DNA of 64,000 nt from Auraticoccus cholistanensis (lineage in GTDB: Bacteria > Actinomycetota > Actinomycetes > Propionibacteriales > Propionibacteriaceae), in contig NZ_WPCU01000010.1 of the NCBI RefSeq assembly GCF_009742705.1, positions 200,096-264,095 on the forward strand, written 5' to 3'. Below the pieces are notes generated by a model. It ran no database searches. It was given only the letters and a program-made list of their open reading frames with translations, and was not told the DNA's origin. Below are positions 701 to 32,110 of this stretch, one piece after another; the stretch's first letter is position 1; the number at the start of each line of letters is the position of its first letter. The translations under genes were made by a program, and so were the position numbers.

Positions 701-3700
701 TCAGAGGCTGGCTCCGGTCCGTCGGCGACGGACCACGAGCGTGGCACCGGCACCCACCAGGCCCAGCCCGGCCAGCAGCGGCAGCAGCACCGCCGGAGCA
801 CCGGTGTCGGGCAGCGAACCGCCCCCGGCGCCCGCACCGCTGTCGCCGTCGTCACCGCGGCCGTCGTCACCGCCGCCGACCTCACCGGGCTCCTCCACCA
901 CGGTGATGTCCACGGCGTCCCAGCCGTCGGTCGGGTCGGTGTTGCGACCGTCGCGCTCGCCGTCGTCGGCCACCTTCTTGCCGTTGGCGTGCAGCTGGGC
1001 CACGTTGGTGACGATCTCCCCGGCGGGGACGTCACCCACCTCGACGTCGATCACCAGGGTCACGACCTGACCCGGCTCCAGCGTGCCGATGGTCCAGACG
1101 CTGCCGTCGTACTCGCCCTGGCTGGCGGCGTAGTCGCCGGCGTAGTCGACCCCGGCCGGCAGCACGTCGTCGACGCGGACGTCGACCGAGCGGTAGGTGT
1201 CGTGACCCTCGACGACGATGCCGTACTGGATCCGGTCGCCCACCGCCACCTCACGCGGCTGGGGGTTCCCGTCCTCGTCGTAGAGCGTGTCGGTCACCTC
1301 ACCGGCGCTGTCCAGCGACTCACCCGGCAGCAGCACCTTCTTGTCCAGGGTCGGGTCTCCGCTGCGGACGGTGATGTCGACCTCGTCGTAGCCGTCGTCG
1401 GGATCGGTGTTGCGTCCACCGTCCTTGCCGGGGTTCTTCGGGTCGTCCTCGATCTCCTTGCCGTTGCCGCTCAGCTGGGCGACGTTGGTGACGATCGTGC
1501 CGTCCTCGGCGGGCTGCACGGTCACGTCGATGAGCAGCGTGACCACCTCACCAGCGGCCAGGTCGCCGATCTGCCAGACGCTGCCGTCGTAGCTGCCCTT
1601 GCTGGCGACGTGGTCGCCGGCGTAGGCCACGCCTGCGGGCAGCGGGTCCTCGACGAAGACGTCGGTCGAGGGGAACCGGTCGTGGCCCTTGACCACGATG
1701 CCGTACTGGATCACGTCGCCGACGCTCACCAGCCGGGGCTGCGGGTCGCCGTTGCCGTCGTAGAGGGTGTCGGTGACCTCACCGGCGTCGTCCAGGGTCT
1801 CCCCCGGCAGCAGCACCTTCTTGTCCAGGGCGGGGTCGCCCTTCGGCTCCAGCGGGTTGCAGACCTCGGCCTCGAGCTCGAGGTCGTTGTGGTCCGCGAC
1901 CGCGCCGTTGAGCAGACCCCCCGGACCCTCGGCGCCCGGCTCGACCTCGCAGCCGAACTGCGCCGGGTCGATGGCGTCGGAGTCGACGTCGACCTCGAAG
2001 GTCACCGTCACCCGGTAGGTGTGCGACGCACCGGCGGCGAGCTCGACGTCGTCGACCAGCTGGTTCTCCTCGGCCTGCTCCTCCTCGCCCTGACCGGTGA
2101 AGCCCTCGAGCACCGCCAGACCGGCCGGCACCGTCTCCGAGACGGTCACGTCGGTCACCTCGACACCCTCGGGGTAGTCGAGCCGGTCGAAGAGGTCGTA
2201 CTCACCAGCAGCCGCACCGGTGTTGGTCATCACCACGTCGTAGCCGATGGTGAAGGTGTCGTCCTGACCGGCCACCGGGGCCGACGTCGCGGTCTTGGTC
2301 AGCTCGAAGGACGGCAGCGGCGGGCAGGCCACGTCGGACTTGCTCCGCTCGTCCACCAGGTCGATCGAGGCCCGGTTGTTCAGCGCCGCCGGCTCCTCGC
2401 TGCCCTCACCCTCGGCGCAGACGGCGATGCCGCCCTGGGCCACCAGGTCGACCGGCACCTCGGCGACCACGGTCAGCTGGTAGACGTGCGGGGCGTAGCC
2501 CTCGTCGTCGTTGCCCAGCAGCGCGACGTCCTCGGCCACCCGCTGCTGCGCCGCGCCGTCCCAGGCGGGGTCGGCCAGCGTGACACCGTCGGGTGCCTGG
2601 GTGACCTCGGCCGACTCGACCGTCACGTTCTGGTCGAAGCGCAGCTCGTCGTCCAGGTCGTACTCGGTCGCCTCGACACCCAGGTTGGAGACCTCGACGC
2701 CGTAGACGACCTCCCACCGGCCGTCGCCGACCGGCTCGGCCGAGACCACGGTCTTGTCGATCTGCGGCTCACCCGTCTCGGCGCAGGCGTCGTCGACGTT
2801 CTCGTAGCCGTTGAAGGAGACCCCGGCGTCGTTGCGGAGCCCGGTGCCGTCCTCGCCGGCGCCCAGCTGGCAGTCGCTGCTGACCGGCTCGGTGGGCACG
2901 GAGGCCAGGTCCAGGGCGAACCGGGCCGTGACCGAGTAGACGTGCTGCCCACCGGCGGCGATCGGCTCGTCGCTCACCACCAACGTGTCGTCCACGCCGT
3001 TCCAGGTCGAGGAGACCTCGATCCCGGCCGGGTCGGTGCTGGCCACCGTCGCGGAACCGTCGACGAGGGTCATGCCGGCGCCGAAGCGGAAGGCGTCGGT
3101 GAGGTCGTAGTCGGTGTCGACCTCGGACGGGTTGGAGACCGTCAGCAGGTAGCGCACCTCCCAGATGCCCGGCTCCCCGGCCACCGGGGTCGGCTCACCG
3201 TCCAGCACCTTGGTGATGTCCACGAAGGGCAGCGAGGGGCAGGCGTCGTCGACCAGGTCGTCCCAGCCGTCGGGGGACAGCGTGGCCGCGTTGTAGGCAC
3301 CGCGGCCCGGGGTCGAGCCCCCGCCGGCGGCGGGCTGGCAGGTCAGGTTCTCCACCGGCGGGACGACGACGCCGTCCGCGTCGGTCTCCAGACGCACCTG
3401 CGCGGTCACCTGGTACTGGTGGGTGACGGACTCGCCCATCTCCCACTCACCGGACTCCTCGTCGAAGGTCATCCCCGCGCCGTCGATGGGCACGTCGGCG
3501 ATGACCAGCTGGTCCTCCGACCCGTCGAAGCCCTCGTTGAGCTCCACGTCGGCCGGCAGGTCGACGCCCTCGGGGCCGGATGCGGAGGCGCCCTGCAGGA
3601 GGATGCCCTCCCCCAGCTGGGTCAGGTCGTCGGACAGGTCGTACTCACCCGAGGACGGACCCTCGTTCGTCACCGTGAGCCGGTAGACGATGTCCCAGGT

Positions 3701-6277
3701 GCCGTCGTCGTCGGGGTTCTCCGTCGCCGAGACCAGCTCCTTCTCGAACGCCGGCGCCCAGTACCAGAAGCCGAAGTCGAAGGAGTGGTCGTTCTCGCCG
3801 AGGAAACCGGTGCCGGCGTCGCTCGTGTCGACGTCGGCGTACGGGAAGCCGTTCGCCTCGTCGACGAGGCCGTCGGAGTCGTTGCGGTCGGGGTCCAGGC
3901 TGTTCTCAGCACCCGTGTCCGGGGTGGTGGGCACCCAGTTCTCCAGCACACCGCCGTCGGCGAAGTCAGCGGGGTTGTCCACACCGATGACGTACCGGGT
4001 CTGGGCCCGGACGCCGTGCTCGGCGGAGGTGAAGTAGTACTGGCCGAGCTCGTCGGTCAGCACGGTCGCGATCGGGTCACCGGTGCGGTTGCCGTTCTCA
4101 TCCGCTGCGTACAGGTTGACCGTCGCGCCCTCCACCGGGGGCTCATCGGGGTCCTGCACGCCGTTCTTGTCGATGTCGAGCCAGACGTAGTTGCCGATCT
4201 CGATCGGCGCCGCCGACGCCATGATGGACATCGAACCGATGCCGTTGCCCTTCGCCGTCACCGGAGCCCACTCCTCGGGGTCGGTGTTGATCTGCTCGAT
4301 CACTGCCCCGCGCGGGTCCTGGTGCTGACCGGTCGCCTGGTACAGCCGACGCGTCCCCATCTGGAAGGCGTAGCCGGTGAAGGCGCTGTTCACGTGGATG
4401 CCGGTGGAGAGGATGCCGTCCTCCCGGCTGGGCATGACGACGATGGAGCCAAGGGACTCGGTCGCCGAGGTGGCGTCGACTCCCCAGCTGGCGTCGAAGT
4501 AGCTCTCGCCGCCGCAGGTGAAGTTGGTGTCTTGCGGGAACGTGCCTGCACCTGGGTAGGACCCGGGGGTCTTGTCCGCGTTGCACTCCACGTCCCACGT
4601 ACCGGAACCCGAGGGACGCGCCATGAGCACGTTGCCACGGGCGGTGCCGGCACCGACTGTCCGGGTGTCGCTGAGGTCACCTGTGGCCATTGCGCCGTTG
4701 GCGCCGAAGAGGTCGCCGCTGAGGTCGCGGATGCCGATGATGAGGTCCCCGTGCAGGTACTGCGCTGTGGCGACCTGCGGCTGGTTGTAGATGTAGTGGC
4801 CGTTCACGTCCGGATCGGGGTTGCCCAGCGCGTAGTACGTGACGTCAGCGGGGTCGGTGGACCACGGATGGGGGTCGTTCCCGTCGATGGTGGCCGTCCG
4901 CGACCCGCTCAGCGGGAAGTCCGCGATGAGGCGCAGGTCGACGGGTGCACCGGCAGTCAGGTCGCTCGGGTCGAAGGCGAACACGTAACCCGCCAGCTGC
5001 GAGCGGTCTCCGCTCGTCTCCGCCGTGTACGTCGCGGTGAGGTACATCTCGTTCGTCAACGGGTTGCTGCTCAGACCGAAGGGGCGCAGGTCGCCGGGGT
5101 CTGCGTGGTCACCACTGACCGTGGCCCAGTCGCCCCCGAGGGCGATCTCCTCGACCGAGGAGGGCGTCGTCGCCGCCGGCCTGCCGGTCTCGATGGCGAT
5201 CAGCGAGCGGTTGTGCAGGTTCACCGCGAAGAGCGACGCCTCGTCGGGTGAGAAGGCGATGCCGCCCAGCCCGGTCCGACCGACCTTGTACCAGGCGTGC
5301 GTGTCGCGGCCCCAGTCGTAGCTGGGGTTGTCGGCGGTCGCGTGCGGACGGATGCCGTGGGCGTCCTGGCCGAGGCCGCTGGGGTACTCCTCACCCAGGT
5401 CGATTCCGTGATCGGTGACGTCGACGTACAGAGAAGCCGAGGCGGTCGCGGAGGTGGACCAGTCCGAGCCGTCCGGAGCCACCTGGTAGATCGCTCCCAT
5501 CCCACCGGGACCGAAGGCGGAGTGTCGCCGGTAGTAGGCGGCGGTGAAGATCTTGCCGGGCTCGCCCAGCACCTGCGGCCGCTGCCAGGCCGACCCGTTG
5601 GTCGCACCGACCTCCTGGAACTCGACCTTGGCGACGGTCGGCACCTCGCAGGAGTCGTTCCACGGGTTGGCATTGCAGACGCCCTCGCTCTGAGCGTCCC
5701 AACGCATCAAGGACGCGCCCGTGTCGGTGGCGCTGCCGTACTCGGTCGAGTCGTAGGTGCCGTAGCGGACGATGGGGGTGTAGACGAGCGGGTTGTTCTC
5801 CACGTAGGCGCTGGGCACCTGGAAGGAGAAGTCGACCTCGGTCGACGGGACGGATGTGACGAACTGGACGGTGGACCGGTTGTCGGCGCCGGAGGCGGAC
5901 TCGCGCCAGGCCTCCCACTCCGCGGTGTCGGGGACGTCGGCCTCCACGCGCCACTGCTCCGCGTCGGAGGTGGTGGCGATGGTGTACGTGCCGTCCGCGG
6001 CGGTGGTCGCCGGGCCGGCGACGTTGCCCTCGGAGTCGTAGGCGTAGACCTCGATGCCGGCCAGCGGCTGCTCGTAGGTGTCGAAGACGCCGTTGGCGTC
6101 GTAGTCCTGCCAGGCGGACCCGGTGATGGTCTCGCCCTCCGCCGCCGCGGCCGGCAGAGCCGCGAACGACGAGGCGACCAGTGCGGCCGCCGTGGCGGCG
6201 ACCACGCCGCTGCGGGTCCAGGTGCCGAATGCGTTCCCCGGTGACCGGGGGTGGGTCGTCCTCGCCCGACTGCTCAC
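701..6277 (-). CDS. large LPXTG-anchored surface protein with SdrD_B and DUF11-like repeats
   Basis: Predicted 1,858-residue cell-wall protein. Start is GTG at 6277, preceded by GGAGGAG. Residues about 20-45 form a signal peptide ending in Ala-rich sequence. A first SdrD_B/Cna-B-like module (about 47-135) has the typical D-x-D-x-N-G loop (DYDANG). A long region to about 690 looks beta-rich and may be a propeller. A second SdrD_B module starts near 692 (GNYVWLD, DIDKNG). Four modules of about 150-175 residues follow (about 841-1475), each with a YDL motif and a Cys pair about 30-40 residues apart near its end. Two near-identical modules (about 1476-1798) open with the same LDKKVLLPGE motif. 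The C-terminus has LPDTG (1822-1826), a 23-residue hydrophobic segment and RRRR, a complete sortase signal. Likely roles are adhesion or stalk formation, but the ligand is unknown. The extreme GC third-position bias explains the long antisense frame, which I treat as a shadow. Confidence 0.9.
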   Translation of the reverse strand: MSSRARTTHPRSPGNAFGTWTRSGVVAATAAALVASSFAALPAAAAEGETITGSAWQDYDANGVFDTYEQPLAGIEVYAYDSEGNVAGPATTAADGTYTIATTSDAEQWRVEADVPDTAEWEAWRESASGADNRSTVQFVTSVPSTEVDFSFQVPSAYVENNPLVYTPIVRYGTYDSTEYGSATDTGASLMRWDAQSEGVCNANPWNDSCEVPTVAKVEFQEVGATNGSAWQRPQVLGEPGKIFTAAYYRRHSAFGPGGMGAIYQVAPDGSDWSTSATASASLYVDVTDHGIDLGEEYPSGLGQDAHGIRPHATADNPSYDWGRDTHAWYKVGRTGLGGIAFSPDEASLFAVNLHNRSLIAIETGRPAATTPSSVEEIALGGDWATVSGDHADPGDLRPFGLSSNPLTNEMYLTATYTAETSGDRSQLAGYVFAFDPSDLTAGAPVDLRLIADFPLSGSRTATIDGNDPHPWSTDPADVTYYALGNPDPDVNGHYIYNQPQVATAQYLHGDLIIGIRDLSGDLFGANGAMATGDLSDTRTVGAGTARGNVLMARPSGSGTWDVECNADKTPGSYPGAGTFPQDTNFTCGGESYFDASWGVDATSATESLGSIVVMPSREDGILSTGIHVNSAFTGYAFQMGTRRLYQATGQHQDPRGAVIEQINTDPEEWAPVTAKGNGIGSMSIMASAAPIEIGNYVWLDIDKNGVQDPDEPPVEGATVNLYAADENGNRTGDPIATVLTDELGQYYFTSAEHGVRAQTRYVIGVDNPADFADGGVLENWVPTTPDTGAENSLDPDRNDSDGLVDEANGFPYADVDTSDAGTGFLGENDHSFDFGFWYWAPAFEKELVSATENPDDDGTWDIVYRLTVTNEGPSSGEYDLSDDLTQLGEGILLQGASASGPEGVDLPADVELNEGFDGSEDQLVIADVPIDGAGMTFDEESGEWEMGESVTHQYQVTAQVRLETDADGVVVPPVENLTCQPAAGGGSTPGRGAYNAATLSPDGWDDLVDDACPSLPFVDITKVLDGEPTPVAGEPGIWEVRYLLTVSNPSEVDTDYDLTDAFRFGAGMTLVDGSATVASTDPAGIEVSSTWNGVDDTLVVSDEPIAAGGQHVYSVTARFALDLASVPTEPVSSDCQLGAGEDGTGLRNDAGVSFNGYENVDDACAETGEPQIDKTVVSAEPVGDGRWEVVYGVEVSNLGVEATEYDLDDELRFDQNVTVESAEVTQAPDGVTLADPAWDGAAQQRVAEDVALLGNDDEGYAPHVYQLTVVAEVPVDLVAQGGIAVCAEGEGSEEPAALNNRASIDLVDERSKSDVACPPLPSFELTKTATSAPVAGQDDTFTIGYDVVMTNTGAAAGEYDLFDRLDYPEGVEVTDVTVSETVPAGLAVLEGFTGQGEEEQAEENQLVDDVELAAGASHTYRVTVTFEVDVDSDAIDPAQFGCEVEPGAEGPGGLLNGAVADHNDLELEAEVCNPLEPKGDPALDKKVLLPGETLDDAGEVTDTLYDGNGDPQPRLVSVGDVIQYGIVVKGHDRFPSTDVFVEDPLPAGVAYAGDHVASKGSYDGSVWQIGDLAAGEVVTLLIDVTVQPAEDGTIVTNVAQLSGNGKEIEDDPKNPGKDGGRNTDPDDGYDEVDITVRSGDPTLDKKVLLPGESLDSAGEVTDTLYDEDGNPQPREVAVGDRIQYGIVVEGHDTYRSVDVRVDDVLPAGVDYAGDYAASQGEYDGSVWTIGTLEPGQVVTLVIDVEVGDVPAGEIVTNVAQLHANGKKVADDGERDGRNTDPTDGWDAVDITVVEEPGEVGGGDDGRGDDGDSGAGAGGGSLPDTGAPAVLLPLLAGLGLVGAGATLVVRRRRTGASL
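880..1850 (-). repeat. two tandem about 480-bp coding repeats (DUF11-like modules)
   Basis: The blocks at about 1367-1850 and 880-1366 encode two successive modules with the same opening (DP-L-DKKVLLPGE), the same middle (GD-IQYGIVV-GHD, LPAGV-YAGD, YDGSVW-IG) and the same end (IVTNVAQL, GRNTDP). Spacing between the DKKVLLPG codons is about 480 bases. They look like a recent in-frame duplication and are a likely site for length variation. Confidence 0.8.
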
Positions 6278-6609
6278 GAATCTCCTCCAGTGGTCCGGTC
6301 AAGGCCCACCCACGGGAGACGTGTTCGACGGGGGTGCAGCACGACCGCAACTGACGCCTTCTGTTTTCAGACAGACGTTCAGGCCGATTCCTATCGGTAT
6401 TCCTCACGGTCGGGCAAGTGGCGGGGAGGAATTGTTCACACAGAAGCCGACTGGCGTTCCGACGAACCGGTCGGAAAGGTCACGATCGGATAACGGCACC
6501 TATTCCGGCTTGCACGTCGCCGGCCGTTCCCGATATCGGAGGCAATTCCCCGCGCGGCCGCACGGGCCGACGGGCCGGCGCACGACCGGGCACCGGCGTG
6601 CTGCTGCGG
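6278..6609 (-). promoter_or_regulatory. 332-bp AT-richer leader/promoter region of the surface protein
   Basis: This stretch is clearly richer in A and T than its surroundings, notably 6361-6500, and no gene fits. It holds a perfect interrupted palindrome at 6457-6476 (TTCCGAC, six bases, GTCGGAA) and a ten-base palindrome at 6530-6539 (CCGATATCGG). It lies upstream of the GTG start at 6277, so it most likely carries the promoter, operator(s) and a long leader. No single -35/-10 pair stands out. Confidence 0.5.
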
Positions 6610-21564: not shown

Positions 21565-21628
21565 GGGGCCAGTGTGCCAGTCCCCCGGGGCCGTTCTCAC
21601 AGCGCCGGCCGCCGGCTGTGCGGGGATG

Positions 21629-21666
21629 GTTACTCCTGTTTCACGCGGGCCGTCGGTACCCGAAAC
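21629..21666 (+). promoter_or_regulatory. GlnR-box-like element upstream of narK
   Basis: In the 5-6-5-6-5-6-5 layout of GlnR boxes (GTNAC, n6, GAAAC, n6, GTNAC, n6, GAAAC) the outer sites match perfectly: GTTAC at 21629-21633 and GAAAC at 21662-21666. The inner sites are poor (TTCAC, CGTCG). It lies 66-103 bases before the narK ATG, in the only long intergenic stretch of the cassette. GlnR is the usual nitrogen regulator of such genes in actinobacteria. Confidence 0.5.
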
Positions 21667-21731
21667 ACCGCTCGGCGAGGCTCGGCACGGCTCGACCCGA
21701 CCGGGCGGGCGACGTGTCCGAAGGAGCAGCG

Positions 21732-23093
21732 ATGTCCGCACCCACCCGCGAGGCGGCGACACCGGCGACCAGCACCCGCCCGGCGGCCCGGACCCGACGG
21801 GGCCGCTGGCTGACCGACTGGGACCCCGAGGACGAGGCCGCCTGGGCCGCCGGTGGCCGGTCCGTGGCCCGGCGCAACCTGCTGGCCTCGATCGTCTGCG
21901 AGTTCCTCGGCTTCTGCGTCTGGGCGCTGTGGAGCGTGGTGGTCCCCCAGCTGCCGGCCGCGGGGTTCGACCTCAGCGTCGACCAGCAGTTCTGGCTGAT
22001 CGCGCTGCCGGCCCTGGTCGGCGCGGCGCTGCGGATCCCCTACACCTTCGCCGTCCCGCTCTTCGGCGGGCGCACCTGGACGGTGGTCTCGGCGCTGCTG
22101 CTGCTCCTCCCGGTGGCCGCCCTGACCTGGGTGGTGGGACGGCCCGGGACCCCGTTCGGCGTGCTGCTGGCCGTGGCCGCGCTGGCCGGGCTGGGAGGCG
22201 GCAACTTCGCCTCCTCGATGACCAACATCACCTTCTTCTTCCCCGAGCGGGAGAAGGGGCGGGCGCTGGGCGTCAACGCCGCCGGCGGCAACCTCGGCAC
22301 CGGCGTCGTGCAGCTCGCGGTGCCGGCGATCATCACCATCGGCGCGGGCGTGCAGCTGCAGCGGATCGGGCTGGTGCTGGTGCCGCTGGTCCTGCTGGCC
22401 GCCGTGCTGGCGTGGCGGAGCATGGACAACCTGGCCTCCGTGCGGGCCGACTACCGCTCCTTCGCGCTGGCCGCGGCGCAGCGCCACACCTGGATCATCT
22501 CCTTCCTCTACGTCGGCACCTTCGGCTCCTTCATCGGCTACTCCGGCGCCTTCCCCACCCTGCTCAAGACCCAGTTCGTCGGCGCCAGCCCGGCGCTGGC
22601 CTTCCTCGGCGCCCTGGTCGGCGCCCTGAGCCGGCCCCTCGGCGGCATGCTCGCCGACCGGCTCGGCGGCGCCCGGGTGACCATCGGCTCCTTCGGGCTG
22701 CTCACGGCAGGCGCGGGAGGCGCCCTGGTCGCCCTGGCCCAGCACAGCTTCGGGCTCTTCTTCGCCTCCTTCATGGTGCTGTTCCTCGGCACCGGGCTGG
22801 GCAACGGCGCCACCTACCGGATGATCCCCGCGGTCTTCCGGGCCACCGCCCTGGCCCGCGGCGGGGACGTGGCCGTGGCCCGCAAGGCGGCGGCCGGCTG
22901 CCTCGGCATCGCCGGCGCCGTGGGCGCCTTCGGCGGCTTCCTGATCCCCCGCGGGTTCGCGGTCTCGACCACCGCGACCGGGTCGGTCGCGGCCGCGATC
23001 ATGTGCTTCCTCATCGCCTACCTGGTGATGGCCGCGCTGACCTGGGCGGTCTACCGCCGGCCCGGCTCCGCGCTGGCCGGGGAGTCGATCTGA
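21732..23093 (+). CDS. narK: NarK/NasA-type nitrate-nitrite transporter (MFS)
   Basis: Major-facilitator permease importing nitrate and/or exchanging nitrite. 453 residues with about 12 membrane segments after a 50-residue polar N-terminus. It contains the nitrate signature region with FFFPEREKGRALG and NAAGGNLG, and an arginine in RIPYTF in the place of the anion-binding Arg. A second Gly-rich signature with ARKAAAGCLGIAGAVGAFGG lies near the end. Start ATG 21732 has AAGGAG five bases before it. First gene of the nitrate cassette; the nitrate reductase starts five bases after its stop. Confidence 0.93.
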   Translation: MSAPTREAATPATSTRPAARTRRGRWLTDWDPEDEAAWAAGGRSVARRNLLASIVCEFLGFCVWALWSVVVPQLPAAGFDLSVDQQFWLIALPALVGAALRIPYTFAVPLFGGRTWTVVSALLLLLPVAALTWVVGRPGTPFGVLLAVAALAGLGGGNFASSMTNITFFFPEREKGRALGVNAAGGNLGTGVVQLAVPAIITIGAGVQLQRIGLVLVPLVLLAAVLAWRSMDNLASVRADYRSFALAAAQRHTWIISFLYVGTFGSFIGYSGAFPTLLKTQFVGASPALAFLGALVGALSRPLGGMLADRLGGARVTIGSFGLLTAGAGGALVALAQHSFGLFFASFMVLFLGTGLGNGATYRMIPAVFRATALARGGDVAVARKAAAGCLGIAGAVGAFGGFLIPRGFAVSTTATGSVAAAIMCFLIAYLVMAALTWAVYRRPGSALAGESI

Positions 23094-23098
23094 GCCCG

Positions 23099-25258
23099 AT
23101 GGACGTCACCGAGGCCGTCGCCACCCACTGCCCCTACTGCGCGCTGCAGTGCGCCCAGTCGCTGACCCCCACCCCGACCGGGGTCGAGGTCGCCCCGCGC
23201 GACTTCCCCACCAACCGCGGCGGGATGTGCCAGAAGGGCTGGACCTCCGCTGCGCTGCTGCAGACCCCGGACCGGCTCACCAGCCCGCTGCTGCGGGTCG
23301 ACGACGAGCTGGTCGCCGTCGACTGGGACACCGCCCTGGACCACCTCGCCGCCCGGCTGAGAGCCGTCCGGGCCGAGTCGGGTGCCGACGCGGTGGCGGT
23401 CTTCGGCGGGGGCGGGCTGACCAACGAGAAGGCCTACCAGCTGGGCAAGTTCGCCCGGCTCGCCCTCGGCACGGCCAACATCGACTACAACGGCCGCTTC
23501 TGCATGTCCAGCGCCGCCGCCGCCGCCAACCGCTCGCTGGGGATGGACCGCGGTCTGCCCTTCCCGCTGGAGGACCTGCGCGGTGCGCAGGCCGTGCTGC
23601 TGCTGGGCAGCAACCTGGCCGAGACCATGCCGCCCAGCCTCAACCACCTGGCCGCCGTGCGGGCCCGGGGAGGGCTGGTCGTGGTCGACCCGCGGCGCAG
23701 CGCCACCGCCGCGCTGGCCGCCGACGACGACGGCGTGCACCTGCAGCCGGTACCGGGCACCGACCTGGCGGTGCTGCTCGGCCTCACCCACGTGGTGCTG
23801 CGCGACGGGCTGGCCGACCGGGACTACCTGCACGGGCGCACCAGCGGCCTCGACGCCCTCGCCGCCGCGGTCGCGGCCTGGTGGCCCGAGCGCGTCGAGC
23901 AGGTCAGCGGCGTGCCCGTGGCGGCCCTGGAGCGGGCCGCGCACCGGCTGGCCGCCGCCGCCCCGGTGCACGGCGGGGACGGCGCCTACGTGCTGACCGG
24001 ACGGGGCGTGGAGCAGTCCAGCCAGGGCACCGACACCGTGACCGCCGCGATCAACCTGGCGCTGGTGCTGGGGCTGTGCGGACGGGTCGGCAGCGGCTAC
24101 GGCGCCGTCACCGGGCAGGGCAACGGCCAGGGCGGCCGCGAGCACGGGCAGAAGGCCGACCAGCTGCCCGGCTACCGCTCGATCACCGACCCCGACGCCC
24201 GGGCCCACGTGGCCGGCGTCTGGGGCGTGGACCCGGCCACCATCCCGGGCCCGGGTCTGCCGGCGGTGCAGCTGCTGGCCGCGCTGGGCACCGCCGGCGG
24301 ACCCCGGGCGCTGCTGGTGCACGGGGCGAACCTGCGGATCAGCGCCCCCAGCGCCGGGGACGTCGCGCGCCGGCTCGCCGCCCTCGACCTGCTGGTGGTG
24401 TGCGACTTCGTGCTCTCCGAGACCGCCGCCCTGGCCGACGTGGTGCTGCCGGTCACCCAGTGGGCCGAGGAGGAGGGCACCATGACGTCGCTGGAGGGCC
24501 GCGTGATCCGGCGTCGCCGGGCGCTGCCGCCGCCGGCCGGGGTCCGCAGCGAGCTGCAGGTGTGGGCGGAGCTGGCGGCCCGGCTGCGGGCACCCGGGCG
24601 CTGGGACACCGACCCGGCCGCCGTCTTCGACGAGCTGGCCCGGGCCAGCGCGGGCGGGCGCGCCGACTACTCGGGGCTGAGCCACGCCCGCCTGGACGGC
24701 GCCGAGGCGCTGTTCTGGCCCTGCCCCGCCACCCCGGCCGGGGCGCCGGAGCACCCGGGCACGCCACGGCCCTTCCTGGACCGCTTCCCCACCCCGGACG
24801 GGCGGGCCCGCCTGGTGCCGGTCGACCACCGCGGCCCGCAGGAGCGGCCCGGTCCCGGCCACCCGCTGCACCTGATCACGGGCCGGGTGCTGCAGCACTA
24901 CCAGTCCGGCGCCCAGACCCGCCGCGTGCCCGAGCTGGCCGCCGCCCAGCCCGAGGCGTTCGCCGAGCTGCACCCGCTCACCGCCGACCGGCTGGGGGTC
25001 GGCGACGGCGACCGGCTGCGGCTGCGCAACCGCCGCGGCGAGGTGCTCGCCCGGGCGCGGATCAGCGCGGCGATCCGTCCCGACACGGTGTTCGTGCCCT
25101 TCCACTTCGCCGGCGCGGGCAGCGTCAACGAGATCACCAACGACGCCCTCGACCCCGTCTCGAGCATGCCGGAGTTCAAGGTCTGCGCGGTCGACGTCGT
25201 GGCCGAGGACGACCCCGCCCCGCACGCCGGGGCACCGGTGGAAGGAGCAGCGCGGTGA
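23099..25258 (+). CDS. nasA: assimilatory nitrate reductase catalytic subunit (molybdopterin)
   Basis: Reduces nitrate to nitrite in the cytoplasm using Mo-bisMGD and one [4Fe-4S]. 719 residues. The N-terminus binds the cluster through C11, C14, C18 and C44 (CPYCALQC, GGMCQKGW). NGRFCMSSAAAA supplies the probable Mo-ligand cysteine. GLTNEKAYQLGKF, GQGNGQGGREHG and the C-terminal molydopterin-dinucleotide domain (LITGRVLQHYQSGAQTRR) complete the fold. No Tat signal is present, so it is assimilatory, and no C-terminal BFD cluster; the partner flavoprotein carries that. The stop overlaps the next start (GTGA). Confidence 0.94.
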   Translation: MDVTEAVATHCPYCALQCAQSLTPTPTGVEVAPRDFPTNRGGMCQKGWTSAALLQTPDRLTSPLLRVDDELVAVDWDTALDHLAARLRAVRAESGADAVAVFGGGGLTNEKAYQLGKFARLALGTANIDYNGRFCMSSAAAAANRSLGMDRGLPFPLEDLRGAQAVLLLGSNLAETMPPSLNHLAAVRARGGLVVVDPRRSATAALAADDDGVHLQPVPGTDLAVLLGLTHVVLRDGLADRDYLHGRTSGLDALAAAVAAWWPERVEQVSGVPVAALERAAHRLAAAAPVHGGDGAYVLTGRGVEQSSQGTDTVTAAINLALVLGLCGRVGSGYGAVTGQGNGQGGREHGQKADQLPGYRSITDPDARAHVAGVWGVDPATIPGPGLPAVQLLAALGTAGGPRALLVHGANLRISAPSAGDVARRLAALDLLVVCDFVLSETAALADVVLPVTQWAEEEGTMTSLEGRVIRRRRALPPPAGVRSELQVWAELAARLRAPGRWDTDPAAVFDELARASAGGRADYSGLSHARLDGAEALFWPCPATPAGAPEHPGTPRPFLDRFPTPDGRARLVPVDHRGPQERPGPGHPLHLITGRVLQHYQSGAQTRRVPELAAAQPEAFAELHPLTADRLGVGDGDRLRLRNRRGEVLARARISAAIRPDTVFVPFHFAGAGSVNEITNDALDPVSSMPEFKVCAVDVVAEDDPAPHAGAPVEGAAR

Positions 25259-26787
25259 CGCGGGTGGTCGTGGTGGGCAACGGCATGGTGGGGTCGCGCT
25301 TCGCGGCCGAGCTGACCGACGGCGACGGCGGCCGGTTCCGGGTCACCGTGCTGGGGGCCGAGTCGGCGCAGCCCTACAACCGGGTGCTGCTGAGCCAGCT
25401 GGTGGCCGGCCAGTACGGGCCCGAGGCGCTCGCGCTGCCCTCGGCCGCCTCGGAGCGGGTGCGCGTGCACGGCGGCACGGTGGCGCTCGCCGTCGACCGT
25501 CAGGACCGCAGCGTGCTCGCCTCCGACGGCTCCCGGCACCGCTACGACTTCCTGGTGCTCGCCACCGGGGCCGCGGCCCGGGTGCCCGCCCTGCCGGGGC
25601 TGGACCCGTGGCCGCGGGGGGTGCACGCGCTGCGCACCCGCGACGACGCACTCGCCGTCGTGGCCGCCACCGCCGAGGCCCGCTCCGCGGTGGTGCTCGG
25701 CGCCGGGGTGCTGGGGGTGGAGACCGCGGTGGCGCTCTCCCGACGGGGGCTGCCGGTCACCGTGGTGCACCCGGCGCCCACCCTGATGGACCGCCAGCTG
25801 GACGCCGGGGCCGGACGGGTGCTCGCCGCCAGCCTGGCCCGGCTGGGGATCGAGCACCGCGCCGGGGTGCCCGCCCGTCGGGTCCGCACCCGCGACGGCC
25901 GGCTGACCGGGCTCGACCTGGACGACGCCTCGGTGCTGCCGGCGGACCTGCTGGTGGTCTGCACCGGCACCCAGCCGCGGACGGACCTGGCCCGGGCCGC
26001 CGGCCTGCCGGTGGGACGCGGGGTGCTGGTCGACGACCGGCTGGCCAGTCCGGCCGACCCCCGCGTCTTCGCCGTCGGGGACTGCGCGGAGCCGCCGGAG
26101 GGCGCCACCGGGCTGGTCGCCCAGGGCTGGGAGCAGGCCGCCCGGCTGGCCGCGCGGCTGCGGGCCACCGGCACCGGGCCGGGAGCCCTCCCCCGCCGGC
26201 GGGACCGGGTGGCCGACGACGTGGTCAAGGTCAAGGCCGCCGGGCTCGACGTGGTCACCATGGGGGTCTCCGGCGCCCGCGTCGGCGACCCGGCGCTGCG
26301 GACCCTGCGGCTGAGCGACCCCGACGCCGGCCGGCACGTCGAGGTGGTGGTGTCCGGCCAGCGGCTGGTGGGGGCGACCTGCCTCGGCGACGCCGAGGTG
26401 GCCGCGGAGCTGCTGGCCTGCTACACCCGCGGCACACCGGTGCCGGCGGACCCGGCCCGGCTGCTGCTGACGCCGCTGGCCGCCGTGGCCGCCCCGCGCC
26501 CGGCGGTCACCGAGCTGGCCGAGGACGCCGTGGTCTGCCGGTGCAACGGCGTGGACCGGCGCACCATCGACCGGGCCTGCCGCGAGGGCGCCACCACGGT
26601 CGAGGAGGTCGCCGCCCGGACCCGCGCCGGGACCGGCTGCGGCGGCTGCCGGGCCGACGTCTGCGCCCTCGTGGAGGCCCTCGCCCCGGTGCCGGCCGGC
26701 ACCTCACCGCAGCCCGGCCCGGGCTGTGAGAAGAGCGTTACCGCCGTGTCACCGCTGGCGTCGGCCGCTGTGACGTCGGCTCGTTAG
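25255..26787 (+). CDS. nitrate reductase electron-transfer flavoprotein (FAD/NAD(P)H, BFD [2Fe-2S])
   Basis: Probable NAD(P)H-side subunit of the assimilatory nitrate reductase (NasB-like). 510 residues. FAD-binding GNGMVG is at the N-terminus, a second Rossmann motif near VLGAGVLGVE, and the FAD motif VFAVGDCAE follows. A C-terminal BFD-like [2Fe-2S] domain has four Cys (CRCNG and CGGCRADVC). Start GTG 25255 overlaps the nasA stop and has AAGGAG seven bases upstream. The last codons contain the GlnR-box-like element for nirB. It resembles the FAD half of NirB; here it is a separate protein beside a full NirB. Confidence 0.88.
   Translation: MTRVVVVGNGMVGSRFAAELTDGDGGRFRVTVLGAESAQPYNRVLLSQLVAGQYGPEALALPSAASERVRVHGGTVALAVDRQDRSVLASDGSRHRYDFLVLATGAAARVPALPGLDPWPRGVHALRTRDDALAVVAATAEARSAVVLGAGVLGVETAVALSRRGLPVTVVHPAPTLMDRQLDAGAGRVLAASLARLGIEHRAGVPARRVRTRDGRLTGLDLDDASVLPADLLVVCTGTQPRTDLARAAGLPVGRGVLVDDRLASPADPRVFAVGDCAEPPEGATGLVAQGWEQAARLAARLRATGTGPGALPRRRDRVADDVVKVKAAGLDVVTMGVSGARVGDPALRTLRLSDPDAGRHVEVVVSGQRLVGATCLGDAEVAAELLACYTRGTPVPADPARLLLTPLAAVAAPRPAVTELAEDAVVCRCNGVDRRTIDRACREGATTVEEVAARTRAGTGCGGCRADVCALVEALAPVPAGTSPQPGPGCEKSVTAVSPLASAAVTSAR
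26737..26774 (+). promoter_or_regulatory. GlnR-box-like element upstream of nirB, inside the previous gene
   Basis: GTTAC (26737-26741), GTCAC (26748-26752) and GTGAC (26770-26774) lie on a strict 11-bp period (n6 spacers), with CGTCG in the third slot. This is the spacing of GlnR boxes. It overlaps the last codons of the flavoprotein gene and ends 23 bases before the nirB ATG. Confidence 0.55.
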
Positions 26788-26790
26788 CGT
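26785..26790 (+). promoter_or_regulatory. candidate leaderless -10 of nirB
   Basis: TAGCGT is a TANNNT hexamer and is followed by exactly six bases and then the ATG at 26797, the geometry of leaderless actinobacterial mRNAs. There is no ribosome-binding site before the ATG. Its first three bases are the TAG stop of the upstream gene. Confidence 0.5.
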
Positions 26791-26796
26791 CCCGAC

Positions 26797-29448
26797 ATGC
26801 CCCAGGAGAAGGACCGGCCCGAGGAGATCGACGTGCAGGACCAGACCCCGCCAGACCCCGCGGACACCACCGCCGACCGGCCGCGCCGCCTCGTGGTGGT
26901 CGGTGCCGGCATGGTCGCCCACCGCCTCGTGGAGGCGCTGCTGCAGCGCGACACCACCGGGGCCTTCACCGTCACCGTGCTGGGCGAGGAGGAGCACCCG
27001 CCCTACGACCGGGTCGGCCTCACCTCCTTCTTCGCCGGCCGCGACGCCGAGCAGCTCGCCCTGGGCGACCCCGCGCTGTGGGACGACGACCGGGTCGACC
27101 TGGTCCTGGGCAGCCGGGTCACCGGGCTCGACCGCGCCGCCCGCACGGTGACCACCGCCACCGGGCAGGTGCACCGCTACGACGAGCTGGTGCTGGCCAC
27201 CGGCTCCAGCGCCTTCGTGCCCCCGGTCGCCGGCGCCGACCTGCCCGGGGTCTTCGTCTACCGCACCCTCGACGACGTCGCCCGGCTGCAGCGCTGGGTC
27301 CGCGACCGGGCGGAGCAGCACGACCGGCCGCTGCGCGGCGCCGTCGTCGGCGGCGGCCTGCTCGGTCTGGAGGCGGCGGGGGCGCTGCAGTCCATGGGCG
27401 TGCACAGCACGGTCGTCGAGTTCGCGCCGCGGCTGATGGCGGTGCAGGTGGACGAGGCCGGCGGCCACGCCCTGCAGCGGATCATCACCCGGCTCGGGAT
27501 CGAGGTCCGCACCAGCACCGCCACCACGGCCATCACCGCGGGCCCCGACGGCGCGGTGGCCGCCATGACCTTCAGCGACGGCTCCAGCACCGACGTGGAC
27601 GTGGTCGTGGTCGCCGCCGGCATCAGGCCCCGCGACGAGCTGGCCCGCGCCGCCGGGCTGGCCGTCGGCCCCCGCGGCGGGCTGGTGGTCGACGACGCCT
27701 GCCGCAGCGAGGACCCGCACGTGTCGGCCGTCGGCGAGGTGGCCTGCATCCGCGGCGCCACCCTGGGTCTGGTCGCCCCCGGGTACACGATGGCCGAGAT
27801 CCTGACCGACCGGCTGCTCGGCGGGCAGGCCACCTTCCCCGGCGCCGACACCTCCACCAAGCTCAAGCTGCTCGGCGTGGACGTCGCCTCCTTCGGCGAC
27901 GCCTTCGCCGCCACCCCCGGCGCCCTCGAGGTCGTCTACGCCGACCCGGCCGCCGGCGTCTACAAGAAGCTGGTGCTCTCCGACGACGCCGAGGTCCTGC
28001 TCGGCGGCATCCTGGTCGGCGACGCCAGCGCCTACGCCTCCCTGCGCCCGATGGTGGGACGCCGGCTCGGTGTGGACCCGGCTGCCTTCCTGCTGCCCGA
28101 GGGTGCGGCGGCCGGCCCGGCCGGGCTGGAGCTCCCCGACGAGGCGGTGGTCTGCTCCTGCAACAACGTGACCGCCGGGGCCGTCCGGTGCGCGGTGTCG
28201 GAGCAGGGCGCCTGCGACCTCGCCGCCGTGAAGGGCTGCACCCGGGCCGGCACCAGCTGCGGCTCGTGCCTGCCGAGCGTCAAGAAGCTGATGACCACCG
28301 AGCTGGAGAAGTCGGGGCTGACGGTCAGCAGGGCGCTCTGCGAGCACTTCGAGCAGACCCGCGCGGAGCTGTTCGAGATCGTCCGGGTCACCCGGCTGAC
28401 CACGTTCAGCGAGATCATCTCCCGGCACGGGCGTGGCCGCGGCTGCGACATCTGCAAGCCGGTGGTGGCCTCGGTCCTGGCCTCGCTCGGGGGCGGGCAC
28501 ATCCTGGCCGGTGAGCAGGCGGCGCTGCAGGACACCAACGACCACGTGATGGCCAACCTGCAGAAGGACGGCTCCTACTCGGTGGTGCCCCGCATCCCCG
28601 GCGGGGAGGTCACCGCGGAGGGCCTGATCGCCATCGGCGAGGTCGCCCGCGACTTCGGGCTGTACACCAAGATCACCGGCGGCCAGCGGATCGACCTGTT
28701 CGGGGTCCGGCTGGAGCAGCTGCCGGCGGTGTGGCGGCGGCTGGTCGCGGCCGGGTTCGAGTCCGGTCACGCCTACGGCAAGTCGCTGCGGACGGTGAAG
28801 TCCTGCGTCGGGTCCACCTGGTGCCGCTACGGGGTGCAGGACTCGGTCGGGCTCGCGGTGGCCCTCGAGCTGCGCTACCGCGGCCTCCGCTCCCCGCACA
28901 AGCTCAAGCTGGGGGTCTCCGGCTGCGCCCGGGAGTGCGCCGAGGCCCGCGGCAAGGACGTCGGCGTGATCGCCACCGAGCAGGGCTGGAACCTCTACGT
29001 CGGCGGCAACGGCGGCGCCACCCCGCGCCACGCCCAGCTGCTGGCCGCCGACCTGGACAACGACACCCTGGTCCGCACCGTGGACCGCTTCCTCATGTAC
29101 TACGTGCGCACCGCCGACCGGCTGCAGCGCACCGCCGCCTGGCTGGAGGAGCTGGACGGCGGCCTGGACCACGTCCGCGAGGTCGTGGTCGAGGACGCGC
29201 TGGGCATCGGCGCCGACCTGGAGCAGGCGATGGCCGCGCACGTCGACGGCTACGCCGACGAGTGGGCCGCGGTGCTGGCCGACCCCGAGCAGCTGCGCAA
29301 GTTCACCGCCTTCGTCAACGCCCCCGACCACGTCGACGAGTCGCTGCAGTACGTCCCCGAGCGCGGCCAGATCCGGCCCGCCACCCCGTCCGAGCGCACC
29401 GGCGGCGCGGTCCTGATCGCCGGTGCCGAGCTGGAGGTCCGCCGATGA
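26797..29448 (+). CDS. nirB: assimilatory nitrite reductase [NAD(P)H], large subunit
   Basis: Six-electron reduction of nitrite to ammonium with FAD, [2Fe-2S], [4Fe-4S] and siroheme. 883 residues, normal length. Order: FAD/NAD domains (GAGMVAHR near the N-terminus, VGGGLLGLEAAG), BFD-type [2Fe-2S] domain (CSCNN, GTSCGSCLP), ferredoxin-like half domain, then the siroheme and [4Fe-4S] ligands C-x5-C (CVGSTWC) and C-x3-C (GCAREC). ATG 26797 likely acts as a leaderless start; GTG 26833, with GAGGAG six bases before it, is an alternative. The nirD start overlaps its stop (ATGA). Confidence 0.95.
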   Translation: MPQEKDRPEEIDVQDQTPPDPADTTADRPRRLVVVGAGMVAHRLVEALLQRDTTGAFTVTVLGEEEHPPYDRVGLTSFFAGRDAEQLALGDPALWDDDRVDLVLGSRVTGLDRAARTVTTATGQVHRYDELVLATGSSAFVPPVAGADLPGVFVYRTLDDVARLQRWVRDRAEQHDRPLRGAVVGGGLLGLEAAGALQSMGVHSTVVEFAPRLMAVQVDEAGGHALQRIITRLGIEVRTSTATTAITAGPDGAVAAMTFSDGSSTDVDVVVVAAGIRPRDELARAAGLAVGPRGGLVVDDACRSEDPHVSAVGEVACIRGATLGLVAPGYTMAEILTDRLLGGQATFPGADTSTKLKLLGVDVASFGDAFAATPGALEVVYADPAAGVYKKLVLSDDAEVLLGGILVGDASAYASLRPMVGRRLGVDPAAFLLPEGAAAGPAGLELPDEAVVCSCNNVTAGAVRCAVSEQGACDLAAVKGCTRAGTSCGSCLPSVKKLMTTELEKSGLTVSRALCEHFEQTRAELFEIVRVTRLTTFSEIISRHGRGRGCDICKPVVASVLASLGGGHILAGEQAALQDTNDHVMANLQKDGSYSVVPRIPGGEVTAEGLIAIGEVARDFGLYTKITGGQRIDLFGVRLEQLPAVWRRLVAAGFESGHAYGKSLRTVKSCVGSTWCRYGVQDSVGLAVALELRYRGLRSPHKLKLGVSGCARECAEARGKDVGVIATEQGWNLYVGGNGGATPRHAQLLAADLDNDTLVRTVDRFLMYYVRTADRLQRTAAWLEELDGGLDHVREVVVEDALGIGADLEQAMAAHVDGYADEWAAVLADPEQLRKFTAFVNAPDHVDESLQYVPERGQIRPATPSERTGGAVLIAGAELEVRR

Positions 29449-29810
29449 GCCTGGATGCCGCACCCGAGTCCCTGCTGGCCGTCTGCCGGCTGACCGACCT
29501 GGTCCCCGAGCGGGGGGCGGCGGCGCTGGTGGACGGGGAGCAGGTGGCGCTGTTCCGGATGGTCGACGACGAGGTGCTGGCGGTGCAGCAGCTCGACCCC
29601 TACTCCGGCGCCAACGTGATGTCGCGGGGCATCGTCGGCACCCGCGGCGAGGCCTGGACGGTGGCCTCGCCGATGTACAAGCAGGTCTTCGACCTGCGCA
29701 CCGGGGAGTGCCTGGACACCCAGGGCCGCGAGCCGCGGCGGCTGCGCACCTGGCCGGTGCGGTGCCGCGACGGCGTGGTGCTGCTCGCCCGCGGCCCGCG
29801 GGAGGGTTGA
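29445..29810 (+). CDS. nirD: nitrite reductase small subunit NirD
   Basis: Rieske-fold small subunit of NirBD. 121 residues. The fold is recognisable (QLDPYSGANVMSRGIVG, SPMYKQVFDLRTGECLD) but the CxH and CxxH cluster ligands are absent, as is normal for NirD. Start ATG overlaps the nirB stop, with GGAGG seven bases before it. Confidence 0.93.
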   Translation: MSLDAAPESLLAVCRLTDLVPERGAAALVDGEQVALFRMVDDEVLAVQQLDPYSGANVMSRGIVGTRGEAWTVASPMYKQVFDLRTGECLDTQGREPRRLRTWPVRCRDGVVLLARGPREG

Positions 29811-29813
29811 GCC

Positions 29814-31001
29814 GTGGCGCTGGTGGCGCTGGAGCTCGCCGGGCGGGCGGTGCTGGTGGCCGGCGGCGGCCCCGCGGCGGCCCGCGCGGCGGCCTCGCTG
29901 CTGGACCAGGACGCCGACGTGCGGGTGCTGGCCGAGGAGCTGTGCGAGGACCTGGCCGAGCTGGCCCGCACCGGCCGGGTCCGCTGGACGCCGCGCCCCG
30001 CCGTCGCCGCCGACCTCGACGACTGCTGGCTGGTGGTGGCCGCGACCGGCGGCTCGCTCACCGACCGGGCCCTGCTGGCGGCCGCCGCCGAGCGCCGCCG
30101 GCCGGCTCTCGCCGCGGCGGGTGACGAGCCGGGCGGGGGTGGGGCGCGCGAGGACGAGGCGGGCTGGGGTCTGGGCAGCGCCCGGCTGCTGCCCCTGGAG
30201 GAGCCGTCCACGCCCTCCCCCGCCCGGTCCCGCACCGGGCCGGCCGGACGGGTCGTGCTGGTCGGGGGCGGACCGGGCGCGGAGGACCTCATCACCGTCC
30301 GGGGTCAGCGGTGGCTGGCCCGCGCCGACGTGGTGGTCGCCGACCGGCTCGGACCGACCGGGCTGCTGGACCGGCTGCCCGCCCGGGTGGAGGTGGTCGA
30401 CGTCGGCAAGACGCCGGGCCGGCACCAGGTCAGCCAGGACGAGATCAACCAGGTGCTCCTGGACCGGGCGAGGGCGGGGCTGACGGTGGTCCGGCTCAAG
30501 GGCGGGGACCCGTTCCTGTTCGGCCGCGGCGGCGAGGAGTGGCTGGCCTGCGTCCGGGCGGGGGTGGCGGTCGAGGTGGTGCCGGGGGTCAGCAGCGCGC
30601 TGTCGGTGCCCGCCCTCGCCGGGGTGCCGGTCACCCACCGCGGCACCAGCACCGGGGTGCTCGTGGAGCACGGCCACACCGAGCTGACCGGTGCCGCCGT
30701 GCGGGCCGTGGTCACCGGCGAGGCCACCCTGGTGGTGCTGATGGGGGTGGCCAACCTGTCCCGCCACGTGGCCACGCTGCTGGCCGCGGGAGCCGACCCC
30801 CGGACGCCGGCCGCGCTGGTCTCCGACGGCAGCACGCCGCGGCAGCGGTCGGTCACCGCGCCGCTCGGCCGGCTGGTGGCCGAGGTGGAGTCCGCGGGGC
30901 TGGGAGCTCCGGCCGTGGTGGTCGTGGGTGCGGTGGTCGACGCCCTCGCCCCCGCGGCGCCGGCCGGCGACGGCAGCGGTCCGGGAGAGAATGGGGCATG
31001 A
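29814..31001 (+). CDS. cobA: uroporphyrinogen-III C-methyltransferase with a degenerate N-terminal CysG-like domain
   Basis: Makes precorrin-2 for siroheme, the NirB cofactor. 395 residues. The C-terminal SUMT domain (about 145-385) has VVLVGGGPGAEDLIT, VVADRLG, GGDPFLFGRGGEE and PGVSSA. Residues 1-105 resemble the NAD-binding part of precorrin-2 dehydrogenase (GGGPAAARAAASL), but the segment equivalent to the AATDD of CysG reads AATGG, and the usual middle/dimerisation region is missing, replaced by a Gly/Ser/Pro linker. So methylation is well supported while the dehydrogenase and chelatase activity is doubtful. Start GTG 29814 with GGAGGG seven bases before; stop overlaps the next ATG. Confidence 0.88.
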   Translation: MALVALELAGRAVLVAGGGPAAARAAASLLDQDADVRVLAEELCEDLAELARTGRVRWTPRPAVAADLDDCWLVVAATGGSLTDRALLAAAAERRRPALAAAGDEPGGGGAREDEAGWGLGSARLLPLEEPSTPSPARSRTGPAGRVVLVGGGPGAEDLITVRGQRWLARADVVVADRLGPTGLLDRLPARVEVVDVGKTPGRHQVSQDEINQVLLDRARAGLTVVRLKGGDPFLFGRGGEEWLACVRAGVAVEVVPGVSSALSVPALAGVPVTHRGTSTGVLVEHGHTELTGAAVRAVVTGEATLVVLMGVANLSRHVATLLAAGADPRTPAALVSDGSTPRQRSVTAPLGRLVAEVESAGLGAPAVVVVGAVVDALAPAAPAGDGSGPGENGA

Positions 31002-32110
31002 GCTCTGCGCTGAACCAGGTGATGGCCGGGTGCGTCGTGCTGGTCACCGCCGACCGCCGCTCCGGCGAGCTGGCCGCGGCGCTGACCCGCCGCGGCGCCA
31101 GCGTCCGGCACGCGCCCGCGCTGAGCATCGTCCCCCACCAGGAGGACGAGCAGCTGCTGGCCGACACGCGGGCCCTGCTGGCCGACCCGCCCGACGTGCT
31201 GGTGGTGACCACCGGGATCGGGCTCCGCGGCTGGATCGAGGCCGCCGACGTGGCCGGGCTGGCCGACCAGCTGGTGGCCACCCTGGCCCGTACGCGGATC
31301 GTGGCCCGCGGACCGAAGGCCCGGGGGGCGATCCAGGCGGCCGGGCTGCAGGCGGACTGGGTGGCGGAGTCCGAGACGTCGGCCGAGATCCTGGAGCTGC
31401 TGCTGGACGAGGGCGTCACCGGGTGCAAGATCGCCGTCCAGCACCACGGAGCCGGTGCCGACGGGCTGGACACCGAGCTGGCCGCGGCGGGCGCCGAGGT
31501 CCGCAGCCTGGTGGTCTACCGGTGGGGGCCGCCGCCGGACCCGGCCAGGGTCGGCGAGTCGGTGCTGGCCGCGGCCCGCGGGGAGGTCGACGCGGTGGTG
31601 TTCACCTCGGCCCCGGGGGCGGCGGCCTGGCTGTCGGCGGCCGAGCAGGCCGGGGCGCTGCCGGCGGTGGTGGAGCGCTGCGCCGCCGGCGGTCTGGTCG
31701 CCGCCGCGGTGGGGCCGGTCACCGCCCGCCCGCTCCGCGACGCCGGCATCACCCCGCTGGTCCCCGAGCGCGGCCGGCTGGGTGCGCTGGTGCGCACCCT
31801 GGTGCACCACTTCGAGCAGGCGGCCACCACGGCGGTCGCCACCCGGGCGGGTGCGTTGCAGGTGCGGCGCACGGTGGCCCTGCTGGACGGCCACGTGCTG
31901 CCGGTGTCCCCCAGCGGGCTGGCGGTGCTGCGGGCGCTGGCCGACGCCCGCGGCGGCGTGGTGTCCCGCGACGAGCTGCTGCAGGTGCTGCCCGGGGACT
32001 CCAGCGACCCCCACACCGCCGAGGTCGCCGTCGCCCGGGTCCGTGAGGCCGTCGGCCGCGACCTGATCCAGACGGTGGTCAAGCGCGGCTACCGGCTGGC
32101 CACCGCCTGA
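30998..32110 (+). CDS. nnaR: HemD-domain, winged-helix nitrate/nitrite assimilation regulator (NnaR type)
   Basis: 370 residues: a uroporphyrinogen-III-synthase-like (HemD) domain at about 10-260 and an OmpR-type winged helix at about 265-370 (SPSGLAVLRALADA, SRDELLQVLPG, VAVARVREAVG, VVKRGYRLA). Proteins with this fusion (NnaR in Streptomyces coelicolor and Mycobacterium smegmatis) co-activate nitrate and nitrite assimilation genes with GlnR. Its position as the last gene of a nitrate cassette with GlnR-like boxes fits. It probably senses a tetrapyrrole or related ligand, but that is inference; true HemD activity is an alternative. The start ATG overlaps the previous stop (ATGA). Confidence 0.87.
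   Translation: MSSALNQVMAGCVVLVTADRRSGELAAALTRRGASVRHAPALSIVPHQEDEQLLADTRALLADPPDVLVVTTGIGLRGWIEAADVAGLADQLVATLARTRIVARGPKARGAIQAAGLQADWVAESETSAEILELLLDEGVTGCKIAVQHHGAGADGLDTELAAAGAEVRSLVVYRWGPPPDPARVGESVLAAARGEVDAVVFTSAPGAAAWLSAAEQAGALPAVVERCAAGGLVAAAVGPVTARPLRDAGITPLVPERGRLGALVRTLVHHFEQAATTAVATRAGALQVRRTVALLDGHVLPVSPSGLAVLRALADARGGVVSRDELLQVLPGDSSDPHTAEVAVARVREAVGRDLIQTVVKRGYRLATA

Follow-up and report, generated by a model that had tools for sequence, protein, structure and literature searches.

Putative composite NnaR-GlnR activator promoters at two points of an assimilatory nitrate cassette in Auraticoccus cholistanensis

Results

The DNA analyzed here (the window) is a 64,000-nt stretch (contig positions 200096-264095), with a G+C content of ~73%, of the 3.8-Mb genome of Auraticoccus cholistanensis. 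It carries at 21732-32110 an assimilatory nitrate cassette that includes its own cofactor gene and its own regulator gene, nnaR. We found that two places in this cassette, one before the nitrate/nitrite transporter gene narK and the other before the nitrite reductase gene nirB, are in all likelihood composite NnaR-GlnR activator promoters that drive the cassette from two points. This reading is based on the register of the elements, their conservation, the presence of both regulator genes and published binding of NnaR and GlnR at nirB and narK. At both places the first GlnR half-site starts 11 bp (one helical turn) past the GTG of an NnaR-type palindrome, and the elements are as follows, with positions counted from the first letter of the window:

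21596-21622, + strand: NnaR-type palindrome before narK, CTCACA-N15-TGTGCG; the published motif with a spacer one base shorter and one mismatch
21629-21666, + strand: GlnR box before narK, GTTAC-n6-TTCAC-n6-(cgtcg)-n6-GAAAC; rank 4 by the GlnR matrix, rank 1 by the composite model
21677-21682, + strand: probable narK -10 element, GAGGCT (weak, A2 and T6 only), 10 bp past the last GlnR half-site
21722-21731, + strand: predicted narK ribosome binding site, AAGGAG plus spacer
26703-26730, + strand: NnaR palindrome before nirB, CTCACC-N16-TGTGAG; fits the published motif exactly
26737-26774, + strand: GlnR box before nirB, GTTAC-n6-GTCAC-n6-(cgtcg)-n6-GTGAC; rank 1-2 by the GlnR matrix, rank 2 by the composite model
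26785-26790, + strand: candidate nirB -10 element, TAGCGT, 10 bp past the last GlnR half-site; the ATG (26797) follows after 6 bp

A preliminary description of this DNA had given GTTAC and GAAAC as the outer sites of the narK box and GTTAC, GTCAC and GTGAC on a strict 11-bp period before nirB, and both statements were borne out letter by letter: the half-sites are GTTAC (21629-33), TTCAC (21640-44), CGTCG (21651-55) and GAAAC (21662-66) before narK and GTTAC (26737-41), GTCAC (26748-52), CGTCG (26759-63) and GTGAC (26770-74) before nirB, and the period holds in both boxes. It was also right that the nirB box overlaps the coding end of the preceding, nasB-like gene, whose TAG stop lies at 26785-87, and that a TANNNT element (TAGCGT, 26785-90) stands six bases before the nirB ATG. 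Its remark that the inner half-sites are weak applies to the third (CGTCG in both promoters) and not to the second, for which TTCAC and GTCAC are normal variants. The proposal of two GlnR-activated promoters, one of them leaderless, fits the presence of a GlnR gene, the geometry of glnA and the conservation across genera, but it was incomplete, as the NnaR operator had been missed.

The suggested scan with a GlnR matrix, which we built from 38 Streptomyces venezuelae sites derived from chromatin immunoprecipitation (PMC3087709, Table 3), did put both places at the top of the window: among 127,970 positions, ranks 1 and 2 (both strands) went to the nirB box and ranks 4 and 5 to the narK box, with 14-16 bits and 12.9 bits, respectively, for half-sites 1-2, and the AC-n9-AC motif and 6-bp spacers are present in both boxes. 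Random 64-kb windows of matched dinucleotide make-up, however, hold on average 2.2 matches of at least 12.6 bits (narK, 12.9) and 0.075 of at least 15.9 bits (nirB, 16.0). The matrix alone is convincing for nirB only; the narK score is within chance, and because random windows yield about two such matches we rejected the 16-mer matrix by itself as proof of the narK site. With the neighboring elements counted, both places are far beyond chance. A 65-column composite matrix, trained on 48 non-redundant promoters with the genomes of A. cholistanensis, the genus mate and the next closest relative excluded, scored 30.6 before narK (first in the window) and 28.9 before nirB (second), as compared to 4.5 for the next place and a maximum of 11.2 in random windows. 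Across the 3.8-Mb genome, the exact full pattern has just two occurrences, namely the narK and nirB places, and the reversed control has none; two other loose composite matches (loci L085 and L086) were dismissed, as they come without the rest of the composite.

A plasmid search told us no more than that nirB is widespread. The survey of conservation covered ~100 loci of Propionibacteriales, Micrococcales, Mycobacteriales and other groups. A GlnR site lies at +11 from 64 of the 135 palindromes before narK, nasA, nirB or nnaR, as compared to 2 of the 411 palindromes elsewhere in the same DNA. When the offset was left free, the best value was 11 for 49 cases and 12 for a single one, and 10 was never the best, an apparent offset of 13 being the same site measured from an overlapping GTGTG. 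In an alignment of 42 narK and 23 nirB promoters, with the GTG at 0, half-sites fall at +11, +22 and +44 and TANNNT at +59 (±1), and the right arm of the palindrome, at 8.2 bits, is the most informative element. The nirB layout is conserved in the genus mate (L117) and in L089. The full pattern with palindrome and complete TANNNT was found in 51 of the 293 genomes of the order (reversed control, 0), the remaining genomes including ones that lack the genes and ones with small deviations; the gene downstream was narK or nirB in all 40 composite matches inspected, and among these the exact composite was found only before narK and nirB.

In Mycobacterium smegmatis, the NnaR motif is ctCAC(a/c)-16N-(t/g)GTGag and lies beside the GlnR motif (PMC6277429). 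The spacer of the narK palindrome is identical in the genus mate, and relatives often have a spacer of 15-19 between CTCAC and GTG before narK. The strict form, CTCAC-N16..18-GTGAG, has 7 occurrences in the 3.8-Mb genome; the loose form, CTCAC-N16..18-GTGNG, is uninformative alone (94 genome matches versus 63 in the control). Across genera the right arm is mostly GTGCG before narK (C at +3, 61%) and GTGAG before nirB (A, 74%), as can be compared at 21617-21622 and 26725-26730. The nirB box itself holds an inverted repeat, GTCACC-N15-TGTGAC (26748-26774), which resembles a second NnaR palindrome and is kept in L089; because it is not kept in the genus mate (GTCAT), we took it to be a by-product of the half-sites. 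The single NnaR encoded in the genome is 49-89% identical to nnaR of the aligned relatives and is the likely ligand of both palindromes. There is also one clear GlnR, a 219-aa open reading frame (L163) whose best PDB match is M. tuberculosis GlnR (8hih, E 4.9e-81), with a winged helix nearly identical to that of the latter.

Neither box has the full a-b-a-b tandem of four half-sites. A single pair or three half-sites is all that is present at many proven GlnR sites, so a box need not have the full tandem to count as one of them. In the non-redundant set, the information content is about 6 bits for each of half-sites 1, 2 and 4 and 0.55 bits for the third, as compared to 0.83 bits per five spacer columns. 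A different picture is seen at glnA, where the A. cholistanensis promoter (L173, 1501-1554) reads GTAAC-n6-GAAAC-n6-GCAAC-n6-GGAAC, followed 10 bp on by TAGGGT, and where the box alignments of relatives hold no NnaR palindrome, about 4.7 bits in each of sites 3 and 4, and a -10 element that starts 10 bp past site 4. The glnA boxes thus share the 5-6-5-6-5-6-5 grid and the 10-bp step to the -10 element with narK and nirB but have all four half-sites occupied and the palindrome absent. A minority of relatives (e.g., Micromonospora) fill site 3 in the aligned narK/nirB promoters. The comparison indicates that a blank third half-site goes with NnaR coupling and is not an accidental degeneracy.

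The nirB start region reads TAGCGT-cccgac-ATG. TANNNT is found at +59/+60 in 21 of 23 nirB promoters, and the ATG follows 6-7 nt past the -10 element in ten loci (that of A. cholistanensis, the genus mate, L089, L129, L130, L006, L080 and L212-L214). At narK, the offset of the proposed -10 element (+59) equals that of TANNNT in most relatives, and GAGGCT recurs in the genus mate; the predicted leader is about 40 nt long. Judging from this spacing, the nirB transcript would very probably be leaderless and that of narK would not. No promoters were detected when the region was scanned for the sigma-70 consensus, as expected of activator promoters without a -35 element. The stop codon of the nasB-like gene forms the first half of the nirB -10 element, likewise in the genus mate, L089, L118 and L006. 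The last domain of the nasB-like protein ends at residue 474, and the last 36 codons, which are outside any domain, encode the nirB regulatory region. Because the domain ends before the regulatory stretch begins, the tail of this protein is probably a by-product of the nirB promoter.

Identities of the cassette genes were assigned from profile searches with curated cut-offs and Pfam domains:

21732-23093, + strand: narK, NarK/NarU-type nitrate/nitrite transporter of the major facilitator superfamily (NF011608, E 8.7e-102; TIGR00886, E 1.6e-83; both under the curated cut-off)
23099-25258, + strand: nasA/nasC-type assimilatory nitrate reductase catalytic subunit (NF047855, E 7.8e-207, under the curated cut-off; Molybdopterin domains PF00384 and PF01568)
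25255-26787, + strand: nasB-like NAD(P)H/FAD oxidoreductase with a BFD 2Fe-2S domain (PF07992, PF04324)
26797-29448, + strand: nirB, nitrite reductase large subunit (TIGR02374, 1044.9 bits; cut-off 578.35)
29445-29810, + strand: nirD, nitrite reductase small subunit (TIGR02378, 94.4 bits; cut-off 74.65)
29814-31001, + strand: cobA/cysG-type uroporphyrinogen-III C-methyltransferase, for siroheme (TIGR01469, 258 bits; cut-off 185)
30998-32110, + strand: nnaR, a HemD domain fused to an OmpR-type winged helix (NF005568 (PRK07239), 424.4 bits; cut-off 273; PF02602 and PF00486)

Residues 4-474 of the nasB-like oxidoreductase, whose gene directly precedes nirB, match TIGR02374, which makes this protein a partial paralogue of the N-terminal NirB half. 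The precorrin-2 dehydrogenase N-terminal domain of the CobA/CysG protein is only partial, and the stop codon of its gene overlaps the nnaR start (ATGA). Elsewhere in the window, the 16-mer GTCACGATCGGATAAC (6479-6494), a strong GlnR/MtrA-like match at 13.3 bits, is located immediately upstream of the gene for a large cell-surface protein (701-6277, - strand).

Discussion

Co-activation of the same genes by NnaR and GlnR is already known from Streptomyces and Mycobacterium. In M. smegmatis, the promoters of nirB and narK are bound by both proteins, have a conserved spacing and give transcripts that seem to be leaderless (PMC6277429, Antczak 2018). The nirB, narK and trHbN promoters of that species have the same palindrome upstream of a GlnR motif at conserved spacing, a GlnR box upstream of the start, leaderless character and the same kind of target genes; in A. 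cholistanensis, by contrast, both promoters lie in one cassette with the nitrate reductase gene, the palindrome before narK is shorter by one base, the end of the preceding gene overlaps with the copy before nirB, and the -10 element is TAGCGT or GAGGCT. As summarized in a review (PMC10704036) on the work of Amin 2012, GlnR of S. coelicolor activates nnaR, and NnaR binds the nirB promoter cooperatively with GlnR; the genes concerned (nirB, narK, nirA and nasA) are dispersed in that species. For the nas operon of Amycolatopsis mediterranei, a review account holds that three of the four half-sites (a1-b1-b2) are needed and a2 is dispensable; this operon shares the blank third position, but its b1-b2 gap is 16 bp rather than 17 bp, and that account describes no NnaR palindrome.

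One could thus envision the following sequence of events. A NnaR dimer would sit on the palindrome, and a GlnR dimer, possibly binding cooperatively with it, would occupy half-sites 1 and 2 one helical turn downstream, with further GlnR on half-site 4, whose end is exactly 10 bp before the -10 element. Here GlnR would stand in for the -35 element and recruit sigma-A RNA polymerase, as do class II activators of the OmpR/PhoB type. GlnR would signal nitrogen shortage and NnaR would signal nitrate/nitrite or siroheme status, such that the genes would be activated only when both signals hold; by analogy with the mycobacterial and streptomycete systems (PMC6277429, PMC10704036), GlnR in the absence of the NnaR operator is probably not sufficient. 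The first promoter would drive narK-nasA-nasB and the second nirB-nirD-cobA-nnaR, the latter as a leaderless transcript. Because nnaR lies downstream of nirB in the same direction, we propose that it closes a feed-forward loop.

Several observations weigh against this composite arrangement. At narK, the -10 element GAGGCT is weak, and the palindrome is one base under the M. smegmatis motif, a change that at msmeg_4008 accompanied loss of NnaR binding in that species (PMC6277429). At nirB, half-site 4 (GTGAC) scores only 0.3 bits by the relatives' matrix, with which the GlnR part alone is not above the maxima of random windows. Many relatives have narK or nirB genes without a detectable palindrome, and the counts over related genomes are not independent. 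The genome also encodes an MtrA-like protein (L165), and the motif of MtrA is nearly identical to that of GlnR (PMC6277429).

The last point raises the question of whether the main regulator at these boxes, replacing or competing with GlnR, could be MtrA, a protein that has the AC-n9-AC motif in common with GlnR and was detected at the nirB promoter of mycobacteria (PMC6277429). We consider this very improbable, as the gene content and the NnaR coupling point to nitrogen control, and the nirB response is GlnR-dependent in both mycobacteria and Streptomyces. We give equally little credence to activation of both promoters by GlnR alone, with the palindrome as a chance companion: both sites already score among the best in the window by the GlnR matrix, and this genome does contain promoters that use GlnR only, such as glnA, but the palindrome holds the most informative element and a fixed +11 register across genera, no gene other than narK or nirB was seen to follow the exact composite, and the third half-site that is occupied at glnA is missing here.

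Alternatively, the nirB element might be a coding end with chance repeats, nirB being transcribed solely by read-through from the narK promoter. The element does lie within the nasB-like frame, the genes overlap or nearly touch, and in M. abscessus narK3-nirBD-nnaR-sirB is known to be transcribed as one operon. Even so, the regulatory letters are kept in the genus mate and L089, the same layout recurs in distant genera whose upstream gene has its end at another place, and the stretch is past the last protein domain of the nasB-like product, so this explanation seems to us the least probable of all. We thus favor composite NnaR-GlnR promoters at both places. A bolder version is that NnaR and GlnR make up a single complex that is continuous and rigidly phased, with the proximal NnaR arm at position 0 of the GlnR 11-bp lattice (the left arm flexibly spaced, the right arm held 11 bp from GlnR) and an NnaR contact replacing the missing third half-site, and that such promoters are obligate two-signal gates throughout Actinobacteria; this can be advanced only tentatively, and we think it somewhat more apt to fail than to hold.

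What is added here is a base-exact ruler, together with the contrast with GlnR-only promoters; we did not find this ruler stated in the main texts that were consulted on NnaR and GlnR, which for S. coelicolor were those of a review. With such a layout, unannotated actinobacteria could be screened for nitrate-assimilation regulons at a low rate of false matches. It turns co-activation into a structural prediction, namely that NnaR and GlnR would contact each other across 11 bp, and suggests that the blank third half-site is where NnaR-coupled and GlnR-only promoters differ.

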